From: a virus
Virus record (IMG/VR): IMGVR_UViG_3300008107_000602
Coordinates: 1 to 20,642 of that record
DNA length: 20,642 bases
Direction: 5' to 3' (one strand)
The notes under the pieces were generated by a model, which saw only the letters and a program-made list of their open reading frames with translations, did no database searches and was not told the origin of the DNA. The translations under genes were made by a program, and so were the position numbers. Shown here in pieces: positions 6,560 through 17,859 of the stretch (positions are counted from its first letter, which is position 1; each line of letters starts with the position of its first letter).

Positions 6560-6588
6560 TTGACATCCTCAAGACCTCATGTTATTAT
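6560..6588 (+). promoter_or_regulatory. Strong consensus sigma70 promoter
   Basis: TTGACA (6560-6565), an exact 17-bp spacer and TATTAT (6583-6588), the best -35/-10 pair I found in the window. The predicted start is near 6595. No gene starts for over 100 bp and an intrinsic terminator intervenes, so the product is probably a short RNA or an attenuated leader. Confidence 0.65.
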
Positions 6589-6605
6589 GTAAAAGTCTTG
6601 AGGAT
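6565..6605 (+). repeat. 11-bp perfect inverted repeat around the -10 box
   Basis: atcctcaagac (6565-6575) and gtcttgaggat (6595-6605) are perfect reverse complements separated by 19 bp that contain the TATTAT box. The left arm lies in the promoter spacer and the right arm begins at the predicted transcription start, so it may be a two-site operator. Confidence 0.7.
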
Positions 6606-6692
6606 TCTTTGTAGCTTTGAGAACTCAGACCTGTCCTTGGTGGTGGACAGTTTACTTGGTGTCCTAAGGGGGAGTGGTGTCCCCCTTTTTTT
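6595..6692 (+). ncRNA. Candidate small RNA or attenuated leader (~98 nt)
   Basis: Bounded by the consensus promoter at 6560-6588 and the intrinsic terminator at 6666-6692. Internally, ctgtcc (6631-6636) pairs with ggacag (6645-6650) over an 8-nt loop. No convincing reading frame with an ATG lies inside. It could be a stand-alone sRNA, or a leader whose terminator gates read-through into the VWA gene at 6727. I do not recognise it as a known cyanobacterial or phage RNA family. Confidence 0.5.
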
Positions 6693-6702
6693 ATGCTATC
6701 CT
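6645..6702 (+). promoter_or_regulatory. Operator-promoter module, copy 1 (for the VWA gene)
   Basis: The dyad GGACAGTTTACTTGGTGTCC (6645-6664; arms GGACA/TGTCC) lies upstream of extended -10 TGC-TATCCT (hexamer 6697-6702), 36 bp from its GTCC G to the hexamer. The spacer holds the GGGGG/CCCCC terminator hairpin. A short palindrome, CTATCC-tataa-GGATAG (6696-6712), covers the -10/start region, and the ATG follows the -10 by 30 bp. It aligns with four other modules in the window. Confidence 0.6.
6666..6692 (+). terminator. Rho-independent terminator
   Basis: The stem AAGGGGGA/TCCCCCTT (6666-6673 with 6680-6687) has a 6-nt loop and is followed by a run of T through 6692. This is the clearest intrinsic terminator in the window. 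It would end transcription from 6595 and from the structural genes upstream. Confidence 0.8.
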
Positions 6703-6726
6703 ATAAGGATAGTCAAAGAAGTACAG

Positions 6727-8868
6727 ATGCCAGTCAATCTAGAAGTCAAAGGTTCTCTTGCCAAATGTCTGGCAACAGAGAATCTTATTGTTGAACACAA
6801 GAAAGTTTCTACTGCATGTTTTGATGTAGATCGTAGGGTTCTTACTCTGCCTATGTGGGATAAAGCATCTGCAACTGTTTATGACCTTCTTGTAGGTCAT
6901 GAGGTTGGTCATGCATTGTTCACCGACAATATTGATTGGACTATTGATTATCCTGAGGTTCCTAAGGATTTTGTCAATGTGATTGAAGATGTTCGTGTAG
7001 AGCGTTTGATGAAGAAAAAATATCCTGGTCTTTCTAAGACTTTCTATACTGGTTACAATGAGTTGAATACTGACGATTTCTTCTCTACTAAAGATGAAGA
7101 TCTAGATAAACTTTCTTTTATTGATAGGATCAATCTTTACTTCAAGATTGGTGCATTCCATAACATTGCATTCTCAGATGAAGAGAATGAGTTTCTGACT
7201 CGCATTAGTCAGTTGGAAACATTTGCTGAGGTTCTTGAGACTGCAAGAGATCTTGTAAAATACCTTAAGTATTCTCGTAAGAAACTGGATGAGATTCCTC
7301 AGATTTCTCAGGATAGTGGTCAATCTGGTGGCGAAGAAGTAGAACTGCCTGATGATTCAGATGATTCTGCGCAGCAATCTATGGATATTGAGCAAGGTTC
7401 AAAAGAATCTTCTTCTACTGATGGTGAATCCCAAGGTGATGAAAAAGTTACTACCAAACAAGAGGATCCCTCTGGTGGTGGTCGTGAACCTAGTGATAAA
7501 CATGGTGAGTTTGAGTCTAAAACTTCTCAATCATTTGATGAGAAGGCACAAGACCTGACTGATAAGTATGGGGAAGAGAGTACCTATGTGGAACTTCCTG
7601 AGATCATTCTTAAGAATGTAATCATCCCCAATGATTATATCCATGCCAAAACAAAGGAGCATTATGAAGATGGATCTCATTGGGTCAAGGAATGGCATAA
7701 AGAAGTAATTCAAGAATATGTAAAGTATAAGAAGTCTGCAGAGAAGGAAGTATCCTATCTGGTAAAAGAGTTTGAGTGTAAGAAATCTGCAGATCAGTAT
7801 GCTCGTTCTACTACTGCTAGGACTGGTGTTCTTGATACTTCTAAACTTCATACTTACAAGTACAATGAAGATTTGTTCAAGAAGATTTCAGTGATTCCTG
7901 ATGGTAAGAATCATGGTTTGATCTTTATTCTTGACTGGTCTGGATCTATGTCTAACTGGATTCTGGATACTTGTAAGCAGATGTATAATCTGATCTGGTT
8001 CTGCAAGAAAGTTAATATCCCATTTGAGGTGTATGCTTTCACTGTGGATTGTAATTCTTATGTGGATATTCAACCTGATCATCCTCCAATCTATAAAAGA
8101 GAGGAGAATGTTATTGCTCCTGAGAAGTCTTTTAGACTCCTTAATTTCTTCACTAGCAATACTAGTTCACGTGAACTAGATGAACAGATGAAGAACATTT
8201 GGGCTGCTTGTTATGCCTTCCAGAAAGGAAGTGGTTCTGCACCTAGACATCTTGATCTTTCTGGTTCTCCTATTGGCGAAGCAATGCTTACTCTTCATGC
8301 ACTCATTCCAGATTTCCAAAGGAAGAATAAACTGCAAAAAGTAAATGTAGTGTTTCTAACTGATGGCGAAGGGTATGTCAATGCCAGTACAATTAAGAAG
8401 CATAAAGGAAGTGGCAATGAATACATTGGTCTAGTCAGAGCATTTAGTACTACTGTTCGTAATAGGAAGAATGGTAGAATCTATCCTCCTTATGAATATG
8501 GTAACTTCCCCAAATATTCTAAGGTTCTTTTGTCTACCTTGAAGGATAAGTTTCCTACTGTTAATTTCATTAACTTTAGGGTTGTTCCTGGCAGGGATTT
8601 GAGAACTTGTTATGACTGGTATGGAAGGGAGTATGGAGAATATGATAAGGTGAAGAGTGTGTACAAAAAGGAACAGTTTATTACTTTCCCTGGTACTGGT
8701 TATGATCAGTTCAATGTGATTCCTACTACATCACTTGCACAAAGTGAGGATTTTGTTGTGCCAGAGGATGCTTCCAAGGCACAAATTAAATCTGCATTCA
8801 CTAAGATGCTAGAGAAAAAGAAAACAAACAAGAAACTTCTGTCCTCTTTTGTAGAACTAATTGCATGA
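6727..8868 (+). CDS. VWA-domain protein with an N-terminal HExxH zincin-like domain (CobT-like partner of the AAA+ ATPase)
   Basis: A 713-aa protein. I chose ATG 6727 over a TTG at 6598 because the earlier start would include the terminator and promoter. N-terminal part: GHEVGH (H58, E59, H62), then NVIEDVRVERL (E87/E92), an arrangement of zinc ligands seen in zincin metallopeptidases. Residues about 198-275 are an acidic, Ser/Gly-rich linker. The C-terminal part is a von Willebrand A domain with a MIDAS motif, DWSGS (D403, S405, S407), and a later TDGEG (about 545-549). CobT of aerobic cobaltochelatase and the partners of MoxR ATPases share the linker-plus-VWA layout. Known family logic: a MoxR/CobS AAA+ ring works with a VWA protein to insert a metal or remodel a target. 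The AAA+ partner is the next gene. A protease or protein-remodelling role seems as likely as cobalt insertion, since no CobN-like subunit is seen. Confidence 0.8.
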   Translation: MPVNLEVKGSLAKCLATENLIVEHKKVSTACFDVDRRVLTLPMWDKASATVYDLLVGHEVGHALFTDNIDWTIDYPEVPKDFVNVIEDVRVERLMKKKYPGLSKTFYTGYNELNTDDFFSTKDEDLDKLSFIDRINLYFKIGAFHNIAFSDEENEFLTRISQLETFAEVLETARDLVKYLKYSRKKLDEIPQISQDSGQSGGEEVELPDDSDDSAQQSMDIEQGSKESSSTDGESQGDEKVTTKQEDPSGGGREPSDKHGEFESKTSQSFDEKAQDLTDKYGEESTYVELPEIILKNVIIPNDYIHAKTKEHYEDGSHWVKEWHKEVIQEYVKYKKSAEKEVSYLVKEFECKKSADQYARSTTARTGVLDTSKLHTYKYNEDLFKKISVIPDGKNHGLIFILDWSGSMSNWILDTCKQMYNLIWFCKKVNIPFEVYAFTVDCNSYVDIQPDHPPIYKREENVIAPEKSFRLLNFFTSNTSSRELDEQMKNIWAACYAFQKGSGSAPRHLDLSGSPIGEAMLTLHALIPDFQRKNKLQKVNVVFLTDGEGYVNASTIKKHKGSGNEYIGLVRAFSTTVRNRKNGRIYPPYEYGNFPKYSKVLLSTLKDKFPTVNFINFRVVPGRDLRTCYDWYGREYGEYDKVKSVYKKEQFITFPGTGYDQFNVIPTTSLAQSEDFVVPEDASKAQIKSAFTKMLEKKKTNKKLLSSFVELIA

Positions 8869-8870
8869 TG

Positions 8871-8938
8871 TGACAATTTGGGAACTGTCTACTAGAGGGT
8901 TCCCAACCCTAGTATCTGTGCTATCATTACAAAGTAAT
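8871..8938 (+). promoter_or_regulatory. Operator-promoter module, copy 2 (for the AAA+ gene)
   Basis: The dyad TGACAATTTGGGAACTGTCT (8871-8890) begins just after the VWA stop. Extended -10 TGC-TATCAT has its hexamer at 8922-8927, 35 bp from the GTC G. The palindrome ATTAC-AAA-GTAAT is at 8926-8938. Two stem-loops compete in the spacer: ttgggaac/gttcccaa (8878-8885 with 8899-8906) and AGGGTT/AACCCT (8896-8901 with 8905-8910). No canonical -35 is visible, which suggests activation. The ATG follows the -10 by 29 bp. Confidence 0.65.
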
Positions 8939-8950
8939 CAACCCAAGACC

Positions 8951-10060
8951 ATGCAAGAACAACTTATTACATTATTAAAAGATCAGTTTGGTACTGATAT
9001 TGATGTTAATGCAGTTAAGTCTGTGGCAACTCAATTGAATACTAGTTATGCTACAGCATCTAAGTATCTACAAGCATACAAAACTGGTCGTGGTAAATGG
9101 AATCTGGAGACAACAGTGAAAGAATTAGAAGAAACTTATAACTCACCTGCTGCTGAAGGAAAAGATACTATTAACTCCCTCTCTCCAGTAATTCAAAACC
9201 TGATTCCCAAAAAAGATGATACCTTCGTCAGCTTTGGTAACTTTAGTGATATTAAGAAAGTTGTATCCTCTGGTCTCTTTTATCCTTCCTTCATTACTGG
9301 TCTTTCTGGTAATGGTAAAACTTTTGGTGTAGAGCAAGCATGTGCACAATTGGGTCGTGAACTCATTAGGGTCAATATCACTATTGAGACTGATGAAGAT
9401 GATTTGATTGGTGGTTTTCGTCTTGTAAATGGCGAAACTGTTTGGCACAATGGTCCTGTGGTTGAAGCAATGGAACGTGGTGCAATTCTTCTCCTAGATG
9501 AGATTGACCTTGCTTCCAATAAAATCATGTGTTTGCAGTCAATTCTTGAAGGTAAAGGTGTCTTCCTAAAGAAGATTGGTAAGCATATTGTACCTAAGAA
9601 TGGGTTCAATGTATTTGCCACTGCAAACACTAAAGGCAAAGGTTCTGATGATGGTAGGTTCATTGGCACCAATGTTCTCAATGAAGCATTTCTTGAGAGG
9701 TTCCCTATTACTTTTGAACAGGAATATCCTACTGTAACTGTTGAGACAAAAATCTTGACAAAAGTTGCGCAATCCCTTAGTATTCCTATGATTGGAGAGC
9801 ATACTGATTTTATCAAGCATCTTTGCACTTGGTCTGAGATTATTCGTAAGACCTTCAATGATGGTGGTATTGATGAAGTAATCTCTACTCGTCGTCTTGT
9901 CCACATTATCAAAGCATATTCTATCTTTGGTAAAAAGGATAAGGCACTTAAGGTTTGTTTGAATCGCTTTGATGATGAAACCAAATCTACTTTTGTAGAG
10001 TTGTATGACAAAATTGACGCAGAGTTTGAACAAACCGAAACACAAATTGCAAGTGCCTAA
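8951..10060 (+). CDS. cobS: MoxR/CobS-like AAA+ ATPase
   Basis: A 369-aa protein. ATG 8951 is chosen because a promoter module lies directly upstream; the longer reading from 8861 would be coded through it. The first ~55 residues look like a small helix-turn-helix-type region (VATQLNTSYATASKYLQAYK). AAA+ core: Walker A GLSGNGKT (117-124), Walker B ILLLDEID (179-186), sensor-1 Asn in ATANT (N226), a probable arginine finger in EAFLERF (R250) and sensor 2 in STRRLVH (R314/R315). This resembles CobS, the ATPase subunit of aerobic cobaltochelatase, and the MoxR group in general; cyanophage homologs are usually labelled cobS. The gene follows the VWA/HExxH gene, and both carry the same promoter module, so the two probably act as a pair. 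The chelatase role is not proved by sequence, as MoxR ATPases act on many targets. Confidence 0.85.
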   Translation: MQEQLITLLKDQFGTDIDVNAVKSVATQLNTSYATASKYLQAYKTGRGKWNLETTVKELEETYNSPAAEGKDTINSLSPVIQNLIPKKDDTFVSFGNFSDIKKVVSSGLFYPSFITGLSGNGKTFGVEQACAQLGRELIRVNITIETDEDDLIGGFRLVNGETVWHNGPVVEAMERGAILLLDEIDLASNKIMCLQSILEGKGVFLKKIGKHIVPKNGFNVFATANTKGKGSDDGRFIGTNVLNEAFLERFPITFEQEYPTVTVETKILTKVAQSLSIPMIGEHTDFIKHLCTWSEIIRKTFNDGGIDEVISTRRLVHIIKAYSIFGKKDKALKVCLNRFDDETKSTFVELYDKIDAEFEQTETQIASA

Positions 10061-10106
10061 AGGCATCTTGCATATATAAAAACATACTCACTTTACTGTA
10101 ATCTCT

Positions 10107-10241
10107 ATGAGCACTATTTTTCTAGAAAAGGATTCAGATACAATCTACGAAGAACTAGAAGAAGATAATAATAGAGAAGAGTTTGAAACAGAGTATAGGG
10201 AAGATAGAATGGATCAAATGATCTCCAAATATGGATATTGA
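10107..10241 (+). CDS. Small acidic protein, unknown
   Basis: A 44-aa protein, strongly acidic (EELEEDNNREEFETEYREDR) and probably helical. The tgcatatataaaaac stretch about 35 bp upstream may be an AT-rich promoter, but no clear -35 or ribosome site is seen. The next gene follows by 9 bp with a strong ribosome site. No family recognised. Confidence 0.5.
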   Translation: MSTIFLEKDSDTIYEELEEDNNREEFETEYREDRMDQMISKYGY

Positions 10242-10250
10242 GGAGGAACT

Positions 10251-10391
10251 ATGATCCAACAAATACAAGAACTTATTGCCAGGGATCATCAGGAAGACCT
10301 AAAACAGTTTGCAGAATATCTTGGTGTTGATTACGAAGATTATCTTGAGTTTCTGCATCCTGATGTTGACTTTGATGATTATTCCAGGTAA
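10251..10391 (+). CDS. Small acidic protein, unknown
   Basis: A 46-aa protein (MIQQIQELIARDHQEDLKQF at the N-terminus, then Asp/Tyr/Glu-rich). Ribosome site aggagga sits 4-10 bp before the ATG. It ends 26 bp before the tRNA-like element. The good ribosome site supports a real gene; function unknown. Confidence 0.6.
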   Translation: MIQQIQELIARDHQEDLKQFAEYLGVDYEDYLEFLHPDVDFDDYSR

Positions 10392-10417
10392 TATGTAGGG
10401 GTGGAAGGTTGCCCCAC

Positions 10418-10490
10418 AGAGAGTGAACCCAAAGGGAAAGGGAGGCAGACAATGCTACACAGTAGTTGGTTCGAGTCCAACCACTCTCTA
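10418..10490 (+). other. tRNA-like element, possibly a degraded tRNA
   Basis: An 8-bp acceptor-like helix, agagagtg (10418-10425) with cactctct (10482-10489), and a perfect T-arm, gttgg-ttcgagt-ccaac (10465-10481). The total length of 73 nt is right for a tRNA. A 3-bp CCC/GGG D-stem is possible, but no standard 5-bp anticodon stem with a U33 loop can be drawn, so no amino acid is assigned. Either the anticodon arm has decayed or this is a tRNA mimic. Confidence 0.45.
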
Positions 10491-10495
10491 CTTAT

Positions 10496-10543
10496 GGGCA
10501 TCAAAGGTCCAAACTTTGAATAAGTCCCGCCCCCTCCATGCCT
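10496..10543 (+). other. Possible tRNA remnant: acceptor-like ends without a T-arm
   Basis: gggcat (10496-10501) can pair with atgcct (10538-10543), the same end bases as the tRNA-Arg just downstream (gggcata...tatgcct). Inside is only a caaag/ctttg hairpin (10502-10506 with 10513-10517). This could be a shrunken copy of that tRNA. The match is short, so chance is possible. Confidence 0.2.
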
Positions 10544-10572
10544 CTTAACAATGCACAAACAGGAGGGACTAT

Positions 10573-10644
10573 GGGCATATGGTGAAAGGGATATCACACG
10601 GGTCTTCTAAACCCTTATTCCTGGTTCGAATCCAGGTATGCCTG
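10573..10644 (+). tRNA. tRNA-Arg (TCT)
   Basis: Acceptor gggcata/tatgcct, D-stem gtga/tcac, anticodon loop cttctaa with TCT at 10606-10608 and a T-arm cctgg-ttcgaat-ccagg. No CCA is encoded. AGA is a common Arg codon in AT-rich phage genes such as those here and tends to be less used by higher-GC marine Synechococcus hosts. Confidence 0.9.
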
Positions 10645-10662
10645 TTGAACACTGAATTGACT

Positions 10663-10824
10663 ATGGAGCAAGATGAGTTAGGTTGGGTGAGTAAAAATAT
10701 GGAATGGGCAATCATTCCATATGGTAAGAAGTTTATGACCATATACTGTGGACAGCAAATTTCTGTTCATAATACTATGGACACTGCTAAAAAGTTTATT
10801 CAAAAGGAGATGAAAAGAAAGTGA
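10663..10824 (+). CDS. Small protein, unknown
   Basis: A 53-aa protein (MEQDELGWVSKNMEWAIIPY, C-terminus KKFIQKEMKRK). I start it at ATG 10663; extending upstream would read through the tRNA-Arg. It has a basic C-terminus and a Trp/Tyr-rich centre. It overlaps the GTG of the next gene. Function unknown. Confidence 0.55.
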   Translation: MEQDELGWVSKNMEWAIIPYGKKFMTIYCGQQISVHNTMDTAKKFIQKEMKRK

Positions 10825-11069
10825 TTAAAAGCATTGAATCCATTCATCAGTCTGAAGATAGAACTGTTTATGTTTCTGCTGTTATTGAAGATGCAGTAGA
10901 GGTTTATGGTCAAACTTTGTATGATCCACCTGAGTATGGTCCTGCATTGTGTGAGGCATCTTTTGAACTAGATGAAGATGAGATTCTTCCAGATAATGAG
11001 CATGAGTTGCTGCAATTCTTAGAAGACCTTGACTTAACTTGGGATTTAGTTGATATAACTGATTATTAA
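10821..11069 (+). CDS. Acidic small protein, unknown
   Basis: An 82-aa protein with a GTG start that overlaps the upstream stop (GTGA); aaggag lies about 12 bp before it. It is very acidic, especially in the second half (FELDEDEILPDNEHELLQF), with beta-strand-like segments at the start (DRTVYVSAVIEDAVEVYG). No motif recognised. Confidence 0.6.
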   Translation: MIKSIESIHQSEDRTVYVSAVIEDAVEVYGQTLYDPPEYGPALCEASFELDEDEILPDNEHELLQFLEDLDLTWDLVDITDY

Positions 11070-11114
11070 TTAGATTAATTTTTTGCCTAGATAGTTAATA
11101 ATATGGAGAATTAA

Positions 11115-11294
11115 ATGGAATCCATATTCTTAACTACTATTATTTCTTGTTCTCAAGCAATGGGAGCATTGAATAGATTAACATCTGTAGTTGGATTGAC
11201 TGAACAACAAAAAAATGAAATAGTTGTTGAACTTAGAAAAATTATCCCCTCATGTCCAATCACCATCAAAAAAGATGAGCACAGAAAAAAGTAA
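11115..11294 (+). CDS. Small protein, unknown
   Basis: A 59-aa protein (MESIFLTTIISCSQAMGALN..., C-terminus KKDEHRKK). atggag lies about 10 bp before the ATG. The first 35 residues are rather hydrophobic but polar positions break a membrane helix. Its 3' end overlaps the next gene by 20 bp in another frame, which is usual in this window. Confidence 0.5.
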   Translation: MESIFLTTIISCSQAMGALNRLTSVVGLTEQQKNEIVVELRKIIPSCPITIKKDEHRKK

Positions 11295-11439
11295 AGCAAT
11301 AGATCTTATGATTGAAGATCTGCATACTGTACACCCAGAAATAAGATGTAGAGCAAAAGGGCAGGGGTGTGAACAGGAATTAGATGTAATTAAAAGACAA
11401 CTTATAGATTACTTAAATTTCTTAAGAAAAACACCATGA
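11275..11439 (+). CDS. Small protein, unknown
   Basis: A 54-aa protein, start MSTEKSKAIDLMIEDLHTV. I prefer ATG 11275 to an upstream in-frame start at 11224 that would lie deep inside the preceding gene. It has two Cys (RCRAKGQGCEQ), a helical amphipathic C-terminus, and an ATGA overlap with the next gene. Function unknown. Confidence 0.5.
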   Translation: MSTEKSKAIDLMIEDLHTVHPEIRCRAKGQGCEQELDVIKRQLIDYLNFLRKTP

Positions 11440-11693
11440 TCTATTACTATTCATTGTTTACTATATTTGCCATTATTTTGACAATGATGGTAATAGATCC
11501 AAATGTTTCTGATTATATTGTTCTTCTTTCTAAACTTGTAAAAAGTAAAGTTGAAAGACTGTATTGGATGATAAGATTTCATCCAATAGTTTTTTCTAAT
11601 CCAGTGGCACAATGGTGGATGATGAGAAAACACATGAAGACAGTAGAGAAACTGGCACAAGAACTTTCCAAAAGACAGGATGATGCTGTATAA
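11436..11693 (+). CDS. Small single-pass membrane protein
   Basis: An 85-aa protein. Residues about 5-28 (YSLFTIFAIILTMMVIDP...) form a likely transmembrane helix or uncleaved signal anchor, followed by a basic, aromatic segment (KVERLYWMIRFH) and a charged helical tail. It starts by ATGA overlap with the upstream gene. The -10-like TATAAT at its 3' end may serve the next gene. Function unknown. Confidence 0.6.
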   Translation: MIYYYSLFTIFAIILTMMVIDPNVSDYIVLLSKLVKSKVERLYWMIRFHPIVFSNPVAQWWMMRKHMKTVEKLAQELSKRQDDAV

Positions 11694-11716
11694 TACATGT
11701 ATTGAGTGATTTTCCA

Positions 11717-12187
11717 ATGACTTACACAGCAAAACTTAAAGTTCATTTTGATACTGAATGGACTCCTTCATATGGTAGTTCTCGTCTGTATGATGATGAA
11801 ATTCTTCCAGAAGAGCATTATACTTTTGAGATTCCTGCTGAAGATGTCAACATCACGCAACTCTTTCGTTTCTTTGCTACTATTGCTCGCACAATGGGAC
11901 ATTGTGACCAAAACATTATGAAAGGTGCTTGTGCACTTGTATTTAATGATATGCGTAGTGAACAAGACATGAGAAAGGTTGCTGATGAATATGATCTAAT
12001 CCTGGATGAAGATCTATCAGAAAAAATAAAAGAAGCAGTTAAACTAGAAAAAGAGAAGGATGCTGAATGGCAGCGTATTTCCCAAAGTTTAGATTCTTGT
12101 TATAAAGCCAAACTTCAACTACTTCAACAACGTCTTGTTGATGAGTTTGAATTCACAAAAGAGGCAGTAGATAACCTTCTGGAATAA
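11717..12187 (+). CDS. Conserved-type phage protein of unknown function
   Basis: A 156-aa protein starting MTYTAKLKVHFDTEW. ATG 11717 is preferred to a TTG at 11702. TATAAT at 11689-11694, with a weak ttccaa 17 bp upstream, could be its promoter. The N-terminal half looks alpha/beta (strand TAKLKVHFD, then FRFFATIARTMGHCDQNIMK); the C-terminal half is a long charged helix (about 100-156), perhaps a coiled coil. No catalytic motif seen. Confidence 0.65.
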   Translation: MTYTAKLKVHFDTEWTPSYGSSRLYDDEILPEEHYTFEIPAEDVNITQLFRFFATIARTMGHCDQNIMKGACALVFNDMRSEQDMRKVADEYDLILDEDLSEKIKEAVKLEKEKDAEWQRISQSLDSCYKAKLQLLQQRLVDEFEFTKEAVDNLLE

Positions 12188-12191
12188 TCTT

Positions 12192-12668
12192 ATGGAAATA
12201 ACTAAAATTACTCCACATTCCACTGTTCTTGTTTTGAATTCTAGTTATGAACCATTGAACTTTACAAATTGGAAAAGAGCAGTTGTATTACTTCTCAAAA
12301 ACAAAGCACAAGTTCTATCACAAAGGGTCATTAGACTTCTTAATTATGTAAAGTTACCATTGTCTAAGATGATTGAAACAAAACCATCTAAGGCAATGAT
12401 TTATAAACGAGATGATAATAAGTGTCAATATTGTGGGTCTACAAGGTCTTTAACTATAGACCATGTTATTCCCAAATCTAAAGGTGGAGGAGATACTTGG
12501 GATAATTTAGTGGTTGCTTGTTGTTCTTGCAATGCCAAGAAGGGGGATAAACTTCTAGAGCAGAGTGGAATGAAATTGTTGAGGCAACCTAAACAACCTT
12601 ACAATAAAGTACTTTTTACCTTAAATAAATCAAATGTCAAAGAATGGAAAGAATACTCCTACCAGTGA
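12192..12668 (+). CDS. HNH endonuclease
   Basis: A 158-aa protein. The C-terminal half is a zinc-stabilised HNH domain: CQYC (C78, C81), LTIDHVIPKSKGGGDTW with the catalytic H91, N105 in WDNLVVAC, and C110/C113 in CCSCNAKKGD. The N-terminal LVLNSSYEPLNFTNWKRAV is typical of a stand-alone HNH family frequent in cyanobacteria and their phages. The protein would cut DNA with a divalent metal. It could be a homing enzyme or serve in DNA processing; with no intron or interrupted gene nearby, I cannot decide. The next gene begins inside its last 12 codons. Confidence 0.85.
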   Translation: MEITKITPHSTVLVLNSSYEPLNFTNWKRAVVLLLKNKAQVLSQRVIRLLNYVKLPLSKMIETKPSKAMIYKRDDNKCQYCGSTRSLTIDHVIPKSKGGGDTWDNLVVACCSCNAKKGDKLLEQSGMKLLRQPKQPYNKVLFTLNKSNVKEWKEYSYQ

Positions 12669-12906
12669 AGTATTTCCCTATGATCAGTTCCCATTCAAAG
12701 TAATCCACAAGGATGGAAATGATAAGAAAACTTGCTATTTCCAGTCTCAGAATCATGTAGACAAATATCTAGAAAGGTGTAAATTCAATTCAAAGGATTA
12801 TGAAATTTTTGTCAAACCTGGAACATCTGTGGAGACTGTGGGCAAAGTCACTAGGAGAAAAAGCACACCAAGAAAAGGAACTCGCAGATCAAGTAGCAGT
12901 AATTAG
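12634..12906 (+). CDS. Small basic-tailed phage protein, unknown
   Basis: A 90-aa protein beginning MSKNGKNTPTSEVFPYDQFP. It has a compact alpha/beta-looking core (residues 15-65, with KTCYFQSQNHVDKYLERC), then a tail rich in Lys, Arg, Ser and Thr (RRKSTPRKGTRRSSSSN) suited to binding nucleic acid. It overlaps the HNH gene by 35 bp and the following membrane protein by about 107 bp. No ribosome site is evident, so it probably relies on coupling. Confidence 0.6.
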   Translation: MSKNGKNTPTSEVFPYDQFPFKVIHKDGNDKKTCYFQSQNHVDKYLERCKFNSKDYEIFVKPGTSVETVGKVTRRKSTPRKGTRRSSSSN

Positions 12907-13138
12907 AACAATTATCTTTGCTACATATCTCGTGACGAACTGCTTTATTGTGGCAGGTGTGATTCGTCATTGGAACGAAAAAGAAATTAAAGTTGAGGTG
13001 GAAATTTATGAAAATCAAAACTATTCAGAAAAACTATACCCAGAAAGATGGGACAGTATGGGAATGGATGGAATCACCAGAGTTGAAGGAGTTTATCACT
13101 CAGGAACAATCAAAAACAAAACAGGTGAGTTTGAATGA
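12800..13138 (+). CDS. Small membrane protein, start uncertain
   Basis: A 112-aa protein with a likely transmembrane helix (about 35-58: IRTIIFATYLVTNCFIVAGVI), then a charged acidic domain. ATG 12800 is the only ATG upstream of the helix, but it makes the first 36 residues overlap the 90-aa gene in another frame, and its ribosome site (aagga, 2-3 bp away) is too close to be ideal. The true start could be a weak codon nearer 12850-12900. Ends with an ATGA overlap. Confidence 0.5.
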   Translation: MKFLSNLEHLWRLWAKSLGEKAHQEKELADQVAVIRTIIFATYLVTNCFIVAGVIRHWNEKEIKVEVEIYENQNYSEKLYPERWDSMGMDGITRVEGVYHSGTIKNKTGEFE

Positions 13139-13347
13139 CAAGTGAAGTTGAATGGGTTGATGATACATTTTATGTAAAGGAACAACGTTGGGGCACTTGG
13201 GTTTCATATGGAAAAGATGACAAAAGTATTATCACATCTCTCACTCAAGAGCAATGTATATCAGCAACCCGTTTTTATCTTAAGGGACGGCAAGAAGGTT
13301 TCATTGAATCCCAAACTTATGCAGGTCAGGTAGGTGGAAAACTCTAA
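13135..13347 (+). CDS. Small protein, unknown
   Basis: A 70-aa protein beginning MTSEVEWVDDTFYVKEQRWG; Trp/Tyr-rich strands come first, then a helix (LTQEQCISATRFYLKGRQEG). It is coupled by ATGA to the membrane-protein gene. Function unknown. Confidence 0.55.
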   Translation: MTSEVEWVDDTFYVKEQRWGTWVSYGKDDKSIITSLTQEQCISATRFYLKGRQEGFIESQTYAGQVGGKL

Positions 13348-13492
13348 ACCATATCATGTATTTGATTATACAACTCCTTGGTTTGAATGGTTGTCATATT
13401 TGGAATGTTGTGCTAGTCTAGATGTACAACCATCCTACTCTAGATGGTTGAGATACAATTCTTACTTTAATCTTTATGGAGTAAAGAAATGA
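13334..13492 (+). CDS. Small aromatic-rich protein (GTG start)
   Basis: A 52-aa protein that starts at GTG 13334, overlaps the gene before by 14 bp and the gene after by ATGA. It is very rich in Tyr, Trp and Phe (YTTPWFEWLSYLECC, RWLRYNSYFNLYG). Without it there would be a 140-bp gap in an otherwise packed region, and its end fits the next start exactly, so I believe it is real. Function unknown. Confidence 0.5.
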   Translation: MENSKPYHVFDYTTPWFEWLSYLECCASLDVQPSYSRWLRYNSYFNLYGVKK

Positions 13493-13716
13493 GCAGAACT
13501 TACAGGAATACTAATGGTATGCACAAATATGCATACAAATATCCTAGAACAGAAAACGAAAGAAAACTACTTGATGGAGTTCTTCATGATTGTGAATTGT
13601 TTGAATTTCCAGTTTCAAAACTGAATCACATGAAGGCAAGAGAAAATAATCTTCCATCTTGTTGGGATGATCGTGTTGTAAGTGCTTATTATGAGGAGGA
13701 TTGGAAAGCAAGTTAA
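13489..13716 (+). CDS. Small basic protein, unknown
   Basis: A 75-aa protein (MSRTYRNTNGMHKYAYKYPR at the N-terminus). Basic first half, then an acidic tail (AYYEEDWKAS). ATGA overlap with the upstream gene; the next ATG follows its stop directly. Function unknown. Confidence 0.55.
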   Translation: MSRTYRNTNGMHKYAYKYPRTENERKLLDGVLHDCELFEFPVSKLNHMKARENNLPSCWDDRVVSAYYEEDWKAS

Positions 13717-13878
13717 ATGCAGAAAGTATTTGAATCAATTCTTGATTATGCAAATCATTTAGAACAACGAATTGAAAAACTAGAGCAAGAAAATATAGAG
13801 ACCACAAATATTCTTTATGAACTTCAAAACACATTAGAGCAAATTCAATATGACACAAGACTCTCTAAAAGTAACTGA
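13717..13878 (+). CDS. Small coiled-coil protein
   Basis: A 53-aa protein that begins at the base after the previous stop. Residues about 8-45 show heptad-like spacing of Leu/Ile/Tyr (ILDYANHLEQRIEKLEQEN, ILYELQNTLEQI), a probable dimeric coiled coil. The start of the next gene lies 29 bp inside its end. Function unknown. Confidence 0.5.
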   Translation: MQKVFESILDYANHLEQRIEKLEQENIETTNILYELQNTLEQIQYDTRLSKSN

Positions 13879-14167
13879 AAATGAAGATGGTTCATTCCAA
13901 CTTGATTGGGATGAAAATGATCCCAAGTGGTCTTTTTTAAATGATAAAGATCAAGAATGGATTGAAAACTGGTTTAATAATGCACTAAAAGAAAGATTAG
14001 AAATGTATAAAGACAAATACACTATTCCTGTGGAGGAAGATCCTATCACAGGAGAACAATTTATTACTTTACCAAAGGAATGTATTGAAGCACTGAAAGT
14101 ATCAGAAGGTGATACTGTAGTGTGGATTGATAATTGTGATGGAACATTTACTCTCAAAAAAGCATGA
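13850..14167 (+). CDS. AbrB/MazE-like protein
   Basis: A 105-aa protein. The N-terminal ~60 residues are acidic and aromatic. The C-terminal ~45 residues (ITGEQFITLPKECIEALKVS, then EGDTVVWIDNCDGTFTLKKA) follow the SpoVT/AbrB swapped-hairpin pattern: strand, Pro, helix LPxxxxxxLxVxEGD, strand. Such domains form dimers and often bind DNA as transition regulators or antitoxins. No toxin-like gene is seen beside it, so a DNA-binding regulator is a fair guess. It is one candidate, untested, for the factor behind the shared operators in this window. Confidence 0.6.
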   Translation: MTQDSLKVTENEDGSFQLDWDENDPKWSFLNDKDQEWIENWFNNALKERLEMYKDKYTIPVEEDPITGEQFITLPKECIEALKVSEGDTVVWIDNCDGTFTLKKA

Positions 14168-14325
14168 AACTGAAACCTATTCAAACTTGTGGAACTTCTG
14201 ATGGAGAAGTATATAATCTGAATATTGCATTTAGTGACCAACACGCTATAGCATTAGAAGGACTATCTCACGAAGATATGCTACAATTAAAGTCCTGTAT
14301 TGATTGTATGTTAATTGAGGATTGA
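14164..14325 (+). CDS. Small acidic protein, unknown
   Basis: A 53-aa protein (MKLKPIQTCGTSDGEVYNLN..., C-terminus KSCIDCMLIED) with a CxxC near the end (C47, C50). ATGA overlap with the AbrB-like gene. Function unknown. Confidence 0.5.
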   Translation: MKLKPIQTCGTSDGEVYNLNIAFSDQHAIALEGLSHEDMLQLKSCIDCMLIED

Positions 14326-14327
14326 CT

Positions 14328-14675
14328 ATGAATACTTTTGGTAAAGCAATGCAAGAATGGTGGGATTCTGATGCTTGTAAGGAGTTGCAAAAATCTTTTG
14401 AGCACGAAAAAGAACGTGCAATAGGAAAGTATTTTATGCTTTCCGAAGAGGATAAACTTGATATGGTTAAGGCAATCTGCCATATTATGTGTAAAGCAGA
14501 AAGTGAAGGAACTTCTCATAGAGGACTTCAATCTGCACTTGGAATTTATCCTGCAGGATTCTGGGTGGATCATTTAATGGATGTTCATAATGCTTTGTGG
14601 TCTTATTATCATGATCAGAAGAAAGAACAAGAACTAAAAGATGATCTAGATGCCCTTGATAATATCATTAAGTAG
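14328..14675 (+). CDS. Helical phage protein, unknown
   Basis: A 115-aa protein. ATG 14328 lies 2 bp after the preceding stop and is preferred to an overlapping TTG at 14322. It is almost all helical and charged (FGKAMQEWW, KSFEHEKERAIGKYF, then LKDDLDALDNIIK). No motif recognised. An 84-bp gap without a gene follows; it contains a weak TAGAAT (-10-like) near 14733 and no convincing terminator. Confidence 0.6.
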   Translation: MNTFGKAMQEWWDSDACKELQKSFEHEKERAIGKYFMLSEEDKLDMVKAICHIMCKAESEGTSHRGLQSALGIYPAGFWVDHLMDVHNALWSYYHDQKKEQELKDDLDALDNIIK

Positions 14676-14759
14676 TGTAAAGCAAACCAGAAGATAACCT
14701 TAAGAAACCAGTCATACCCTAGATAGTATGTTAGAATATCAACATAATTCAGGAAGATT

Positions 14760-14942
14760 ATGACACTCCCCAGATCTAGTAAAACAGACCTAACAACTGA
14801 TGAATGGAATGAACTGGTTGCCCTTAAGGATGCCATAAACGCAAATCCAGCATCAGTTCATCCGCAAAAGATGGAATTATTTACTGCAATGTTGGTAAAA
14901 TCTCTTGAAGGAAAAGGTGATGACAAAACTCCAAGTCTTTGA
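14760..14942 (+). CDS. Small protein, unknown
   Basis: A 60-aa protein (MTLPRSSKTDLTTDEWNELV...) with ribosome site aggaag before the ATG. It is helical, with the hydrophobic side FTAMLVKSLEG near the end. The next gene overlaps its last 23 bp. Function unknown. Confidence 0.55.
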   Translation: MTLPRSSKTDLTTDEWNELVALKDAINANPASVHPQKMELFTAMLVKSLEGKGDDKTPSL

Positions 14943-15084
14943 AGAAAAAATGTTTGTTTCATACAAAGATATGAATGGGCAAGTGATGCATGTGGGTGAA
15001 AAATACCTAACATTCACGCCATTTAATAGTAAAGCAATTTTAGTGATTTATAAAGGTGACTGGGGTAGTGTGACACTTCTTTAA
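14920..15084 (+). CDS. Small protein, unknown
   Basis: A 54-aa protein (MTKLQVFEEKMFVSYKDMNG, C-terminus IYKGDWGSVTLL), mostly beta-strand pattern. Ribosome site gaaggaaaagg lies close before the ATG. Its last 14 bp lie inside the operator dyad of module 3, so regulatory and coding sequence are shared here. Confidence 0.5.
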   Translation: MTKLQVFEEKMFVSYKDMNGQVMHVGEKYLTFTPFNSKAILVIYKGDWGSVTLL

Positions 15085-15138
15085 CTGTCCACACCCTATT
15101 GACTTTTCCCTCTAGACCTGCTATTATTACAAAGTAAT
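15071..15138 (+). promoter_or_regulatory. Operator-promoter module, copy 3 (KTSC-like gene and tRNA region)
   Basis: The dyad TGACACTTCTTTAACTGTCC (15071-15090) is followed by TTGACT (15099-15104), a 17-bp spacer and extended -10 TGC-TATTAT (hexamer 15122-15127). GTCC to hexamer is 35 bp. The palindrome ATTAC-AAA-GTAAT is at 15126-15138. This is the only copy with a good -35 and it lacks the spacer hairpin. The ATG follows the -10 by 30 bp. Confidence 0.7.
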
Positions 15139-15151
15139 CAATCAAAGGTAA

Positions 15152-15382
15152 ATGACTGTTACTGCTACTCTTTCTGTTGACTCTTCTGCTATTTCTCAAG
15201 TTTCTTTTGACTATGATGAAATGCAAGTTGGTGTGACTTATCACAGCAATCCTGATAAGTCTTATGTCTTTGCCTGCAAAGATCCTATTAGTGTAGAAGA
15301 GCAAATTCGTACTGCTGAAAGTGTTGGCAAATTGATTGCCAAACTCAAGAGGAATGAGATTCTTGTTCCTATTGATGCTTGA
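15152..15382 (+). CDS. KTSC-like small protein
   Basis: A 76-aa protein. After a Thr/Ser-rich start, SSAISQVSFDYDEMQVGVTY and the later EQIRTAESVGKLIAKLKRNE follow, loosely, the layout of the KTSC domain (a strand with a Tyr/Asp, then a helix with Ser-x-Gly-Lys). The usual C-terminal KTSC motif is changed. KTSC proteins have been linked to RNA-related roles, but none is well proved. The gene has its own regulated promoter (module 3) and leads into the tRNA cluster. Confidence 0.6.
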   Translation: MTVTATLSVDSSAISQVSFDYDEMQVGVTYHSNPDKSYVFACKDPISVEEQIRTAESVGKLIAKLKRNEILVPIDA

Positions 15383-15390
15383 TATATAAT
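15363..15390 (+). promoter_or_regulatory. Possible promoter for the tRNA cluster
   Basis: TTGTTC (15363-15368), 16 bp, TATAAT (15385-15390). It overlaps the end of the KTSC-like gene and would start RNA about 55 bp before tRNA-Ser. The -10 is perfect and the -35 fair. Confidence 0.4.
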
Positions 15391-15451
15391 AAGATAGAGG
15401 TTAAGTCCCTGTTATATCCTTATGAGGTATATCACACTTAATCCATCAAAT

Positions 15452-15539
15452 GGAAAGGTGGTCGAGTGGTTGAAGGCTCTAGTCTTGAAAACTAGCGATG
15501 TGAAAGCATCCGTGGGTTCGAATCCCACCCTTTCCGCCA
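15452..15539 (+). tRNA. tRNA-Ser (TGA), CCA encoded
   Basis: A class II tRNA: acceptor ggaaagg/cctttcc, anticodon arm ctagt-cttgaaa-actag with anticodon TGA, a long variable arm (gatg...catc), T-arm gtggg-ttcgaat-cccac, then discriminator G and genomic CCA at 15537-15539. It directly abuts tRNA-Val. Confidence 0.95.
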
Positions 15540-15614
15540 GGGAGATTAACTCAGTGGTAGAGTAACTGCTTTACACGCAGTGAGTCACTGGTTCGAATCC
15601 AGTATTTCCCACCA
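15540..15614 (+). tRNA. tRNA-Val (TAC), CCA encoded
   Basis: Acceptor gggagat/atttccc, anticodon arm actgc-tttacac-gcagt with anticodon TAC, T-arm actgg-ttcgaat-ccagt, discriminator A and CCA at 15612-15614. Zero spacing to both neighbours implies processing from one precursor. Confidence 0.95.
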
Positions 15615-15688
15615 CGGAATGTAGCTCAGTTTGGTAGAGCACTCGCTTTGGGAGCGAGATGTCGCAGGTTCGAATCCTGTCATTCCGA
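15615..15688 (+). tRNA. tRNA-Pro (TGG)
   Basis: Acceptor cggaatg/cattccg, D-stem gctc/gagc, anticodon arm ctcgc-tttggga-gcgag with anticodon TGG and T-arm gcagg-ttcgaat-cctgt. No CCA is encoded, unlike the two tRNAs before it. Confidence 0.95.
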
Positions 15689-15708
15689 TTGGAGAATAAA
15701 TACTCCAA
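15689..15708 (+). terminator. Stem-loop after tRNA-Pro
   Basis: ttggag (15689-15694) pairs with ctccaa (15703-15708) over an 8-nt loop. It has no T-run, so it may be a processing or weak termination signal at the end of the Ser-Val-Pro transcript. Confidence 0.35.
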
Positions 15709-15723
15709 ATTATCATTCTTATT

Positions 15724-15897
15724 ATGTCACTTATTTCACAAAAAGATAGAGAAATTGCTATCTCTGCTTTAGAAAACTATATCATGAAGTTGAGGTCTGA
15801 ATCTCAATTTGATGACTCTAAAGTTTCAGAGGCAAATGCACTTCTTAACTGGATTAAAATAGAATATCAAAAAAATGATAATAAATCTTTGGTATAA
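15724..15897 (+). CDS. Small helical protein, unknown
   Basis: A 57-aa protein (MSLISQKDREIAISALENYI...) that is helical and charged. It sits between tRNA-Pro and tRNA-Asn. The ggtataatgc sequence at its stop codon includes a perfect TATAAT (15893-15898). Function unknown. Confidence 0.5.
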   Translation: MSLISQKDREIAISALENYIMKLRSESQFDDSKVSEANALLNWIKIEYQKNDNKSLV

Positions 15898-15904
15898 TGC
15901 AGAT

Positions 15905-16033
15905 ATGAAGCAGTGGCGTTGGACACTGACTGATCGTAATCTTAATATGGAAGCAGGTCAGCAATCAGAACTGCGTGATGCTTTGAATGATGTAGCAAAC
16001 ACTGTAGAGTATTTGATTAACAAAGAAACTTAA
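15905..16033 (+). CDS. Small protein, unknown
   Basis: A 42-aa protein (MKQWRWTLTDRNLNMEAGQQ..., C-terminus TVEYLINKET). No ribosome site is seen. The ATG lies 7 bp after TATAAT, so a leaderless message is possible; otherwise it depends on coupling to the gene before. It ends 5 bp before tRNA-Asn. Confidence 0.45.
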   Translation: MKQWRWTLTDRNLNMEAGQQSELRDALNDVANTVEYLINKET

Positions 16034-16038
16034 TTTAT

Positions 16039-16110
16039 TCCGAGTAACCCACAAGGTGTGGGAGCAAACTGTTAATTTGTCATAGGTCAGTTCGATTCTG
16101 ACACTCGGAG
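16039..16110 (+). tRNA. tRNA-Asn (GTT)
   Basis: Acceptor tccgagt/actcgga, D-stem ccca/tggg, anticodon arm gcaaa-ctgttaa-tttgt with anticodon GTT and T-arm gtcag-ttcgatt-ctgac. No CCA encoded. Confidence 0.95.
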
Positions 16111-16113
16111 TTA

Positions 16114-16134
16114 GATGTATTAAATACATCTTTT
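16114..16134 (+). terminator. Short hairpin between tRNA-Asn and tRNA-Ala
   Basis: gatgtat (16114-16120) and atacatc (16124-16130) form a 7-bp stem with a 3-nt loop, then TTTT. It is AT-rich and a weak terminator at best; it may guide cutting between the tRNAs. Confidence 0.35.
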
Positions 16135-16136
16135 AT

Positions 16137-16208
16137 GGGGAGTTCGTATAACGGTTATTACTCTGGATTTGCATTCCAGCAATAAGGATTCGATTTCCTT
16201 ACTCTCCA
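16137..16208 (+). tRNA. tRNA-Ala (TGC)
   Basis: Acceptor ggggagt/actctcc (one G-T pair), a small D-stem gta/tac, anticodon arm ctgga-tttgcat-tccag with anticodon TGC at 16170-16172, and T-arm aagga-ttcgatt-tcctt. No CCA encoded. The anticodon loop has exactly seven bases only in this register, so Ala is read rather than Cys (GCA). Confidence 0.85.
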
Positions 16209-16223
16209 CTATAAAGTAAAAAT

Positions 16224-16709
16224 ATGAAACACAAACATCATATCTTGCCACAATATAGAGGTGGTGAAAATATAAAAGAAAATATAATTGAAATTAGTGT
16301 GACTCAACATGCTATGTTTCATTATTGTAATTGGTGTTTGTGGAAAGATGATAGGGATAGATTGGCATGGAAGGGGTTGGTGGGTGAAATTGGTAAAGAA
16401 GAAATAATAAGAGAGTTGAGAAGTATAGGAGGAAAGAAAGCAAATAGACCACATATTCATACAGAAAAACATAAAAAACTTTTATTGGAGGTTGGTAAGA
16501 AAGCACATCATCTTGCAGTAGAATCAGCTAGAAAACCAGAATCTAATGAAAAGAGAAAAAGAACACTTGCACAAATAAAACATCAACAAGGAAGTAAAAA
16601 CTCACAATATGGTAAAATGTGGATTACTGATGGAACAAAAGAAGGTTCTTATAGAATTGATAAATGTGATTTAATTCCTGATGGATATAGAAAGGGAAGA
16701 GTTTGTTAG
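16224..16709 (+). CDS. Homing-type HNH endonuclease
   Basis: A 161-aa protein. N-terminal HNH-like core: HKHHILPQYRGG, then NIIEIS and QHAMFHYC, the H..H/N/H pattern of free-standing phage homing nucleases. A basic middle follows (KKANRPHIHTEKHKKLL), then NSQYGKMWITDG and IPDGYRKGR at the C-terminus, a DNA-binding tail widely found at the end of phage homing enzymes. It begins 15 bp after tRNA-Ala and ends just before promoter module 4, a classic free-standing homing-gene position in an intergenic space. Its base composition looks more A-rich than its neighbours, which would fit separate acquisition. Confidence 0.75.
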   Translation: MKHKHHILPQYRGGENIKENIIEISVTQHAMFHYCNWCLWKDDRDRLAWKGLVGEIGKEEIIRELRSIGGKKANRPHIHTEKHKKLLLEVGKKAHHLAVESARKPESNEKRKRTLAQIKHQQGSKNSQYGKMWITDGTKEGSYRIDKCDLIPDGYRKGRVC

Positions 16710-16712
16710 GTG

Positions 16713-16780
16713 TGCCACTTCTCAAAGTGTCCACAAAAACACCCAAAAGCACCCAATTTGTGCTATAATTACTTTGTAAT
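16713..16780 (+). promoter_or_regulatory. Operator-promoter module, copy 4
   Basis: The dyad TGCCACTTCTCAAAGTGTCC (16713-16732; inner arms CACTT/AAGTG) sits 35 bp (GTCC G to hexamer) from extended -10 TGC-TATAAT (16764-16769). The palindrome ATTAC-TTT-GTAAT is at 16768-16780. No -35 is visible. It begins 4 bp after the HNH stop. The ATG at 16792 follows the -10 by 28 bp. Confidence 0.7.
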
Positions 16781-16791
16781 TGAGTGAGTTC

Positions 16792-16935
16792 ATGAGCACT
16801 GCATTTCTTGATGACATTCAAATTGATGAGTTTGATTGTGTCATTCCTAATGAAGCAATGTTTGATCTTTTTGAAGATAATTGGGAATCTATAGTAGAAA
16901 GTAATGTGGAAGATTGGAGTATGATTGTAGAATGA
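16792..16935 (+). CDS. Small acidic protein, unknown
   Basis: A 47-aa, strongly acidic protein (MSTAFLDDIQIDEFDCVIPN..., C-terminus SNVEDWSMIVE). It begins with MST and is acidic like the 44-aa protein at 10107. First gene of the module-4 operon; ATGA overlap with the next gene. Function unknown. Confidence 0.55.
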   Translation: MSTAFLDDIQIDEFDCVIPNEAMFDLFEDNWESIVESNVEDWSMIVE

Positions 16936-17204
16936 AACTCTTTGATACTATCCATTATAATGACTATGGGCACGAGTGGTATTTCCAACTGTTCTCCCAT
17001 TATCCTCACTTTGGACTATTGGATGTTGTAGTTCAGTGGGACGAATATCCTGCCACAGAAATCTTCCCGATGTTGTTGATTAGCTTTGGTAGCAGGTCTT
17101 TGTGTGGATTTACATTTCGTTGGAAGTGGTTTGAGATAAAATGTGATATGATTACTGCATCACCCAGAAACCTTGAACGATACAGACGAGATTATGACAA
17201 TTAG
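16932..17204 (+). CDS. Phage protein of unknown function
   Basis: A 90-aa protein, start MKLFDTIHYNDYGHEWYFQL. ATG 16932 (ATGA overlap) is preferred to an in-frame TTG at 16914. It is rich in Trp, Phe and Tyr, with strand-like stretches (GLLDVVVQWDEYP, LCGFTFRWKWFEIKCDMI) and a basic end (NLERYRRDYDN), and looks like a small compact fold. Function unknown. Confidence 0.6.
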   Translation: MKLFDTIHYNDYGHEWYFQLFSHYPHFGLLDVVVQWDEYPATEIFPMLLISFGSRSLCGFTFRWKWFEIKCDMITASPRNLERYRRDYDN

Positions 17205-17376
17205 AGCACAAGAAGTTATGAAGGCATACGAAGCAGAAGATACTTACAACTTCCCAAAAGATGGAGTTGTTGCTGCTCTCCGTTATGTTGCTGACCGACT
17301 TTATACTGACTGGGGAGAACTTCAACACCCAGCATCCGTCATCCATGATATTGCTAATGAAGTGGAGGAACTATGA
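17194..17376 (+). CDS. Small protein, unknown
   Basis: A 60-aa protein (MTIRAQEVMKAYEAEDTYNF...). ATG 17194 is used rather than a TTG at 17173. It is helical, with FPKDGVVAALRYVADRLY in the middle. It overlaps the gene before by 11 bp and the gene after by ATGA. Function unknown. Confidence 0.55.
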   Translation: MTIRAQEVMKAYEAEDTYNFPKDGVVAALRYVADRLYTDWGELQHPASVIHDIANEVEEL

Positions 17377-17570
17377 CTGTTGAGAAAGTAAAGTTTGTAA
17401 CTGTCACCCGTGTGATTGACCCAAAATCTGGCATTCACTATTTGGATTCCGTGGATTCTGAAGGTTTCCATTGGATGGCACAAATGGTTCATAATATCAA
17501 TAGTGATGAACCATATTTATTGTACAAAAAAGTGTGGTATAAAGACCCCCAAATGCCGTATGATATTTGA
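17373..17570 (+). CDS. Small protein, unknown
   Basis: A 65-aa protein with beta-strand-like segments (VKFVTVTRVIDPKSGIHYLD, YLLYKKVWYKDPQ). Last gene of the module-4 operon; its stop lies directly before operator 5. Function unknown. Confidence 0.55.
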   Translation: MTVEKVKFVTVTRVIDPKSGIHYLDSVDSEGFHWMAQMVHNINSDEPYLLYKKVWYKDPQMPYDI

Positions 17571-17627
17571 GGACACTTGAAGTACTGGCACAGGGAGACC
17601 CCACAAGGTCTCCTATTGGTCTATAAT
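17571..17627 (+). promoter_or_regulatory. Operator-promoter module, copy 5
   Basis: GGACACTTGAAGTACTGGCA (17571-17590) matches the left dyad arm well and the right arm weakly. TATAAT is at 17622-17627, 35 bp from the position equivalent to the GTCC G. The spacer holds the stem ggagacc/ggtctcc (17594-17600 with 17607-17613, loop ccacaa). It has neither the extended -10 TG nor the ATTAC palindrome. ATG 17650 follows the -10 by 28 bp. Confidence 0.6.
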
Positions 17628-17649
17628 AACCTCATAAGCAACCAAACCG

Positions 17650-17859
17650 ATGACTAACTCAATCACTCCCAAAGTAGCATACATTCCTCTGGAATATCAT
17701 ATGTCTGTTGAAGATTTCTTGGAGTGCTGGAAGGATATGGAAATGGAAGATGAACCCACACAAGAAGATTATGATGCTTTTGTTCTTGATAGGGGTAAAT
17801 CGTATTTTTATGATATGAGAGGAGAACTTGAACTTTACATTCGTTTGGAGGATGCCTGA
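17650..17859 (+). CDS. Small acidic protein, unknown
   Basis: A 69-aa protein (MTNSITPKVAYIPLEYHMSV...), acidic, with SVEDFLECWKDMEMEDEPTQ in the middle. First gene of the module-5 operon. TGATG junction with the next gene. Function unknown. Confidence 0.55.
   Translation: MTNSITPKVAYIPLEYHMSVEDFLECWKDMEMEDEPTQEDYDAFVLDRGKSYFYDMRGELELYIRLEDA

Follow-up and report, generated by a model that had tools for sequence, protein, structure and literature searches.

Identification of a repeated promoter module

Several genes in a 20,642-bp stretch of viral DNA (IMG/VR record IMGVR_UViG_3300008107_000602, positions 1 to 20,642; hereafter, the window) begin downstream of the same 20-bp inverted repeat, or dyad, followed at a nearly constant distance by a -10 element. 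This arrangement raises the question of what kind of site the dyad is and which protein reads it. The best relatives of the window are T4-like cyanophages, S-SRM01 and S-PM2 foremost. We consider it likely, with a probability of about two in three, that a host activator uses the dyads as its operators and that the modules (dyad, gap, and -10) mimic the promoters of the host small RNA (sRNA) Yfr2 and recruit the cyanobacterial regulator PlmA together with host RNA polymerase.

The sequences of the five dyads proposed in the initial annotation were verified at their positions, and a sixth module that had been overlooked was detected. The six modules, their spacer stem-loops and the genes behind them all lie on the forward strand. 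Site 1 (dyad 6645-6664, with a degenerate right half) precedes a -10 of TATCCT at 6697-6702 and an ATG at 6727, and its score of 11.5 is weak. Site 2 (8871-8890) precedes TATCAT at 8922-8927 and an ATG at 8951 (score 34.3), and the additional site 6 (11638-11657) precedes TATAAT at 11689-11694, after a gap of 31 bp, and an ATG at 11717 (score 24.6). Site 3 (15071-15090; score 41.1) is followed by TATTAT at 15122-15127 and an ATG at 15152. Two small-gene operons are headed by site 4 (16713-16732), with TATAAT at 16764-16769 and an ATG at 16792 (score 42.1), and by site 5 (17571-17590), with TATAAT at 17622-17627 and an ATG at 17650 (score 25.8). The proposed spacing from the G of the GTCC position to the -10, 36 bp at site 1 and 35 bp at the other four original sites, was reproduced and corresponds to dyad-to-(-10) gaps of 32 and 31 bp, respectively. 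The first base of the -10 is followed by the ATG after 30, 29, 30, 28, and 28 bp at sites 1 to 5, and only site 3 of these five has a good -35 element (TTGACT at 15099-15104). The inverted repeat is real, but the consensus first given for it, GGACACTT-N4-AAGTGTCC, had to be replaced by TGMCASTT-N4-AASTGKCM, which describes the repeat better.

Scores were calculated with a weight matrix that comprised the dyad, a variable gap and the -10 and that was trained on 178 non-redundant sites from other viral contigs and named cyanophages, with the window excluded. Two hundred simulated windows contained a mean of 0.045 matches scoring 15 or more and had a median best score of 7.5; at the score of site 1, about 0.2 matches per window are expected by chance. 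Matching to the bare consensus (at least 13/16) found nine sites in the window, six of which were the modules. The other three (417, 1302, and 4890) scored exactly 13, and 1.85 are expected by chance. A chance origin of the modules was ruled out by their scores relative to simulated windows and shuffled genomes.

Occurrence of the module in related phages

A scan of IMG/VR with a degenerate pattern that allowed gaps of 20-34 bp found the module in at least 119 stretches, and the gap was 30-32 bp in 110 of 128 among the IMG/VR matches listed. Modules scoring at least 20 were also found in named phages. Six complete T4-like cyanophage genomes had 7 (P-HM2), 12 (P-SSM4), 17 (P-SSM2), 16 (S-PM2), 12 (P-TIM40), and 6 (Syn9) modules, the 35-kb part of S-SRM01 that was searched had 11 and S-TIM5 had 1, and shuffled sequences gave means of 0-0.2 modules per genome. 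Some sites of the named phages were part of the training set and their own scores are partly dependent on it, whereas the scores of the window and of the negative controls are independent. T4 had no module scoring at least 20, and none was detected in 140 kb of HTVC008M, a member of the Kyanoviridae that infects Pelagibacter, or in 40 kb of the T7-like phage P-SSP7. The modules precede start codons, far outscore shuffled sequence and are kept in related phages, and thus passed the tests that the initial annotation had set; its view of a multi-site promoter module that defines a phage regulon was borne out.

In several phages, most modules fell within one small-gene block, which spans 44-69 kb in P-SSM2, 45-55 kb in P-TIM40, and 43-53 kb in Syn9, where the modules at 44776, 47206, 48560, 49080, and 52998 lie inside the small-gene cluster of 43-54 kb. 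The annotated starts of Syn9 (NC_008296) gp61, gp150, and gp183 (44804, 127552, and 148771, respectively) are located 5' of or near the predicted -10, and for each of these genes an ATG further downstream suits the spacing of the module better.

Architecture of the module

The module has the consensus TG-TG[A/C]CA[G/C]TT-N4-AA[G/C]TG[T/G]C[A/C], followed after 30-32 bp by a TATAAT-like -10; the gap had this length in 253 of 264 modules. When the -10 hexamer is taken as positions -12 to -7, the dyad occupies about -63 to -44, in agreement with the earlier placement of its center near -53. An ATG with an open frame was present 18-27 nt past the -10 in 41% of modules compared to 5% of random positions. 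A -35 element (at least a 5/6 match to TTGACA at a spacing of 16-18 bp) was found in just 37 of 287 modules (about 13%) and once at the offset control. The activator-assisted initiation without a -35 that had been suggested for the window is therefore the usual form of the module.

Strong stem-loops (-10 kcal/mol or lower) were present in the spacer between dyad and -10 in 68 of 287 modules (about 24%), versus 14.5 expected from dinucleotide shuffles. The spacer of site 1 contains a stem-loop with a T-run that resembles an intrinsic terminator (6666-6693; -14.3 kcal/mol), and that of site 5 contains a stem-loop at about 17593-17614 (-13.9 kcal/mol). A strong host-type promoter, TTGACA-17-TATTAT (11/12), is located about 80 bp 5' of the terminator-like stem-loop and T-run of site 1, and promoter and terminator together (6560-6693) are compatible with a small RNA of about 100 nt that spans the site 1 dyad.

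Dyad positions 6 and 15 were complementary in 35% of modules versus 48% expected, and positions 1 and 20 in 43%. Because the pairing of the arms as RNA is not conserved, we interpret the dyad as a site on DNA. At positions 6 and 15, C/C or G/G was more common than a complementary pair among the 287 modules, which means that here the operator departs from simple palindromic symmetry.

Two other features were observed close to the -10. There was a second peak of ATG positions, comprising 26 modules with a start 6 nt past the -10 (L027, L039, L040, L046, and viral loci like them), a spacing compatible with leaderless mRNAs; several modules of this type open with similar reading frames of the form MTE-x-IPNVL. 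A second inverted repeat, ATTAC-N3-GTAAT, covers the -10 and the start at sites 2 to 4 (8925-8937, 15125-15137, and 16767-16779). We take it as a local feature, and not as a general second operator, because elsewhere only 6 of 264 modules have it.

Similarity to host Yfr2 promoters

The initial annotation implied that the dyad is a phage-specific novelty, but the dyad matches an element that lies 5' of the Yfr2 sRNA genes of the host. When one genome per bacterial or archaeal species was scanned, 103 module matches were obtained, most of which look like chance. Several cyanobacterial matches (Crocosphaera, the Rhopalodia endosymbiont, strain SU2, and Xenococcus) were informative, being located directly 5' of copies of one RNA, which is Cyano-1 in Rfam (RF01701) and which we take to be the Yfr2 sRNA family. 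At 45 RF01701 loci retrieved from other cyanobacteria, the best dyad lay at -66 to -54 relative to the start of the RNA in 22 cases, where 2.7 would be expected and none of 300 shuffles gave more than 8, and the phage-trained matrix exceeded the 99th percentile of the null (3.46) at 25 of the 45 loci. The half-site TGTGACAGTT was found in position at 15 of 30 Yfr2 loci from the family of small marine-type genomes, a set that overlaps the 45 loci in part, versus 0.9 expected and a maximum of 4. The match of the dyad to the Yfr2 upstream element suggests a host activator.

In Prochlorococcus, PMM1637, a regulator of the GntR family, is reported to bind yfr2 promoters with the CGRE1 motif, which in MED4 was found only in yfr2 promoters, and Yfr2 is described as induced by high light and nitrogen starvation via PMM1637 (PMC6778093). 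PMM1637 is PlmA, a protein that all cyanobacteria have and no other organisms share, that is a member of PII-PipX complexes and that is reduced by TrxM (PMC7344720). Four marine-type genomes contained one GntR gene apiece. A tblastn search of 50,697 phage records detected neither PlmA nor a relative, and a phage-borne PlmA was set aside on this basis.

Several points weigh against a role for PlmA at the phage sites. The left half of the dyad matches marine-type Yfr2 promoters closely whereas the right half has diverged to about TAGCGCC, and the full dyads in phages could serve a protein other than the Yfr2 regulator. Half of the Yfr2 loci that were tested have no site in position, and the -10 spacing of the host sites is broader than that of the phage sites (30-33 bp in 16 of 25). 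The dyad is putatively equated with CGRE1 on the ground of its place in yfr2 promoters. Binding of PlmA at the phage sites, activation and early timing are predictions from sequence, and the main texts of PMC5082946 and PMC7238727 contain no per-gene expression classes.

A right half starting with T, as in marine-type Yfr2 promoters, was observed in 4 of 7 modules of P-HM2, 7 of 12 of P-TIM40, and 4 of 12 of P-SSM4, all phages of Prochlorococcus, and in none of the 33 modules of S-PM2, Syn9, and S-SRM01.

Alternative explanations

The dyad could be bound by a phage-encoded activator that controls a delayed-early or middle regulon, as P2 Ogr or Mu Mor do, with the likeness to Yfr2 promoters being convergent or due to a captured host regulator. 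The dyads of the phages outnumber those of the host and come closer to perfect symmetry, and dyads near -55 are activated by phage proteins in P2 and P4. We nevertheless regard this explanation as unlikely, given that no PlmA/GntR homolog was detected in the 50,697 phage records and that the dyad also occurs, similarly spaced, in front of host Yfr2 genes. The absence of the module from the 140 kb of HTVC008M that were searched also fits a cyanobacterial host factor, because this phage is a member of the same family with a non-cyanobacterial host. A regulator of the T4 MotA type was rejected as well: its box is expected near -30 and the dyad is at about -53, and T4 has no match. In T4-like cyanophages, middle promoters of the T4 type are missing, as are motA and/or asiA (PMC5780444). 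If the reader of the dyad is a host protein, it might be a factor other than PlmA that acts at both Yfr2 and phage promoters. In favor of such a factor, the binding of PlmA to exactly this dyad is a prediction; PMM1637 is, however, the factor reported on Prochlorococcus yfr2 promoters (PMC6778093), and the block conserved in position at yfr2 promoters is a half-site of the dyad, which makes another host factor quite unlikely.

Two further explanations concern what the dyad does rather than what reads it. Many GntR-family proteins repress, and the dyads might be repressor operators that silence their promoters until a later stage of infection. This is very improbable, as the dyad, centered at -53, lies 5' of the core promoter, a -35 is missing from most modules, as expected for promoters that depend on an activator, and Yfr2 is described as induced via PMM1637 (PMC6778093). 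The inverted repeat might instead form an RNA hairpin that serves as a terminator or processing site, a suggestion to which its 8-bp arms, its 4-nt loop and the nearby spacer stem-loops lend some appeal. We rejected this function as barely credible: the pairing of the arms is not kept, and the fixed feature of the module is its distance to the -10. Recruitment of PlmA by a Yfr2-type promoter remains our preferred explanation.

Genes and cassettes downstream of the modules

The site 1 module precedes a gene for a 713-aa peptidase of PHROG 459 (6727-8868; E = 4e-253). Orthologs of this gene are preceded by modules in P-SSM2 (module 129350, 80 bp 5' of PSSM2_150) and P-HM2 (module 125044, 82 bp 5' of PHM2_135), and in Syn9 a weaker module at 127494 is about 80 bp 5' of an in-frame ATG in gp150. 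Site 1, although weak alone, is upheld by these equivalent modules in front of the peptidase gene. Site 2 precedes a gene for a CobS-like AAA ATPase of PHROG 249 (8951-10060), and its counterpart in P-SSM2 is the module at 132716, 85 bp 5' of cobS. The gene behind site 6 encodes a 156-aa protein of PHROG 6458 whose function is not known (11717-12187) and is followed by an HNH endonuclease open reading frame at 12192-12668. Site 3 precedes a gene for a 76-aa protein of PHROG 4357, also of no known function (15152-15382), which is followed by a tRNA cluster at 15452-16209; the label KTSC-like that this gene had received is without Pfam support.

A match to abiF RNA (Rfam RF03085) was detected at 10532-10568, with 50.6 bits and a cut-off of 37, directly 5' of a tRNA-Arg at 10572-10645. 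In S-CREM1, abiF RNA was described as new to cyanophages (PMC9964418).

The dyad-to-ATG unit of site 5, an 84-bp cassette at 17570-17653, shares 95% identity with S-SRM01 54644-54727. The gene 3' of the cassette, in contrast, has its match (88% identity) about 3 kb further along the S-SRM01 genome, and the region as a whole is a mosaic. This is one example of cassette exchange that is independent of the flanking genes.

Proposed mechanism and related systems

In the mechanism that we propose, the module would be a copy of a Yfr2-type promoter, in which the 20-bp inverted repeat spans about -63 to -44, a -35 is usually absent, and a -10 of the sigma-70 type is followed by a short leader. PlmA would already be in the cell when phage DNA enters. 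A PlmA dimer would bind the dyad and keep the polymerase of the host at a weak promoter, with the contact probably made through the C-terminal domain of the alpha subunit (alpha-CTD), as is the case for other sites 5' of -40. This would switch on the peptidase gene, cobS and the gene of the tRNA region jointly with the scattered small-gene operons, most likely early in infection. The strong spacer stem-loop that about a quarter of modules possess could shield the operon behind it from read-through, and the dyad-to-ATG unit of about 84 bp travels between genes as a cassette. More tentatively, T4-like cyanophages may run a multi-promoter regulon, probably an early program, through host PlmA by multiplying the mimic of the Yfr2 promoter, with phage expression following the carbon, nitrogen, and redox status of the host; we regard this broader scheme as quite possible.

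Some or all of these findings, the phage dyad or its equation with CGRE1 among them, may already be in print. An element that regulates early genes of the T4-like cyanophage Syn9 was reportedly described as novel by Doron et al. 2016. The Syn9 modules lie in its small-gene cluster. Lambrecht et al. 2018 are said to have described CGRE1 and PMM1637.

The late promoters of P2 and P4 have an Ogr/Delta dyad near -55 and no good -35. They resemble the module in having a dyad about equally far upstream and in lacking a good -35, but the sequence of their dyad is different and their activator is phage-encoded. Yfr2 promoters share with the module the 20-bp dyad or its left half, the same distance of the dyad from the start and a similar -10 spacing. 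The host copies, however, drive an sRNA and have a diverged right half in marine-type genomes, whereas the copies in phages stand in front of operons for proteins, have greater symmetry and often include a stem-loop.

The PeSLs of T4-type phages, composite cassettes of promoter and stem-loop as cited in PMC4503421, likewise combine a promoter and a stem-loop in one short exchangeable unit, comparable to window sites 1 and 5 with their stem-loops. In contrast to PeSLs, the stem-loop of the module has an operator on its 5' side and the -10 on its 3' side, and the unit includes an activator site. A stem-loop of S-PM2 listed at 11369-11391 (PMC4503421) is the spacer hairpin of a module with its dyad at 11349-11368. 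Host PhoB binds S-PM2d promoters (PMC10976474), and the PhoB-run promoters of P-SSM2 pstS and of S-PM2d genes are similar to the module in that a lytic cyanophage copies the site of a host stress regulator. They differ in regulator and site, and modules number several to many per genome compared to few stress genes.

Implications

The module offers a promoter-based means to annotate operons that are likely to be co-regulated in uncultured cyanophage contigs, and its spacing helps to correct start codons such as that of Syn9 gp61. The part of this analysis most likely to be of interest is the link to the host, by which a candidate host protein is named for activator-type transcription in marine T4-like cyanophages. 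If the proposed role of PlmA is correct, incoming phage genomes could draw PlmA off the host yfr2 genes, and a regulator tied to PII-PipX and thioredoxin would set phage expression, linking infection to the nutrient and light status of the cell.

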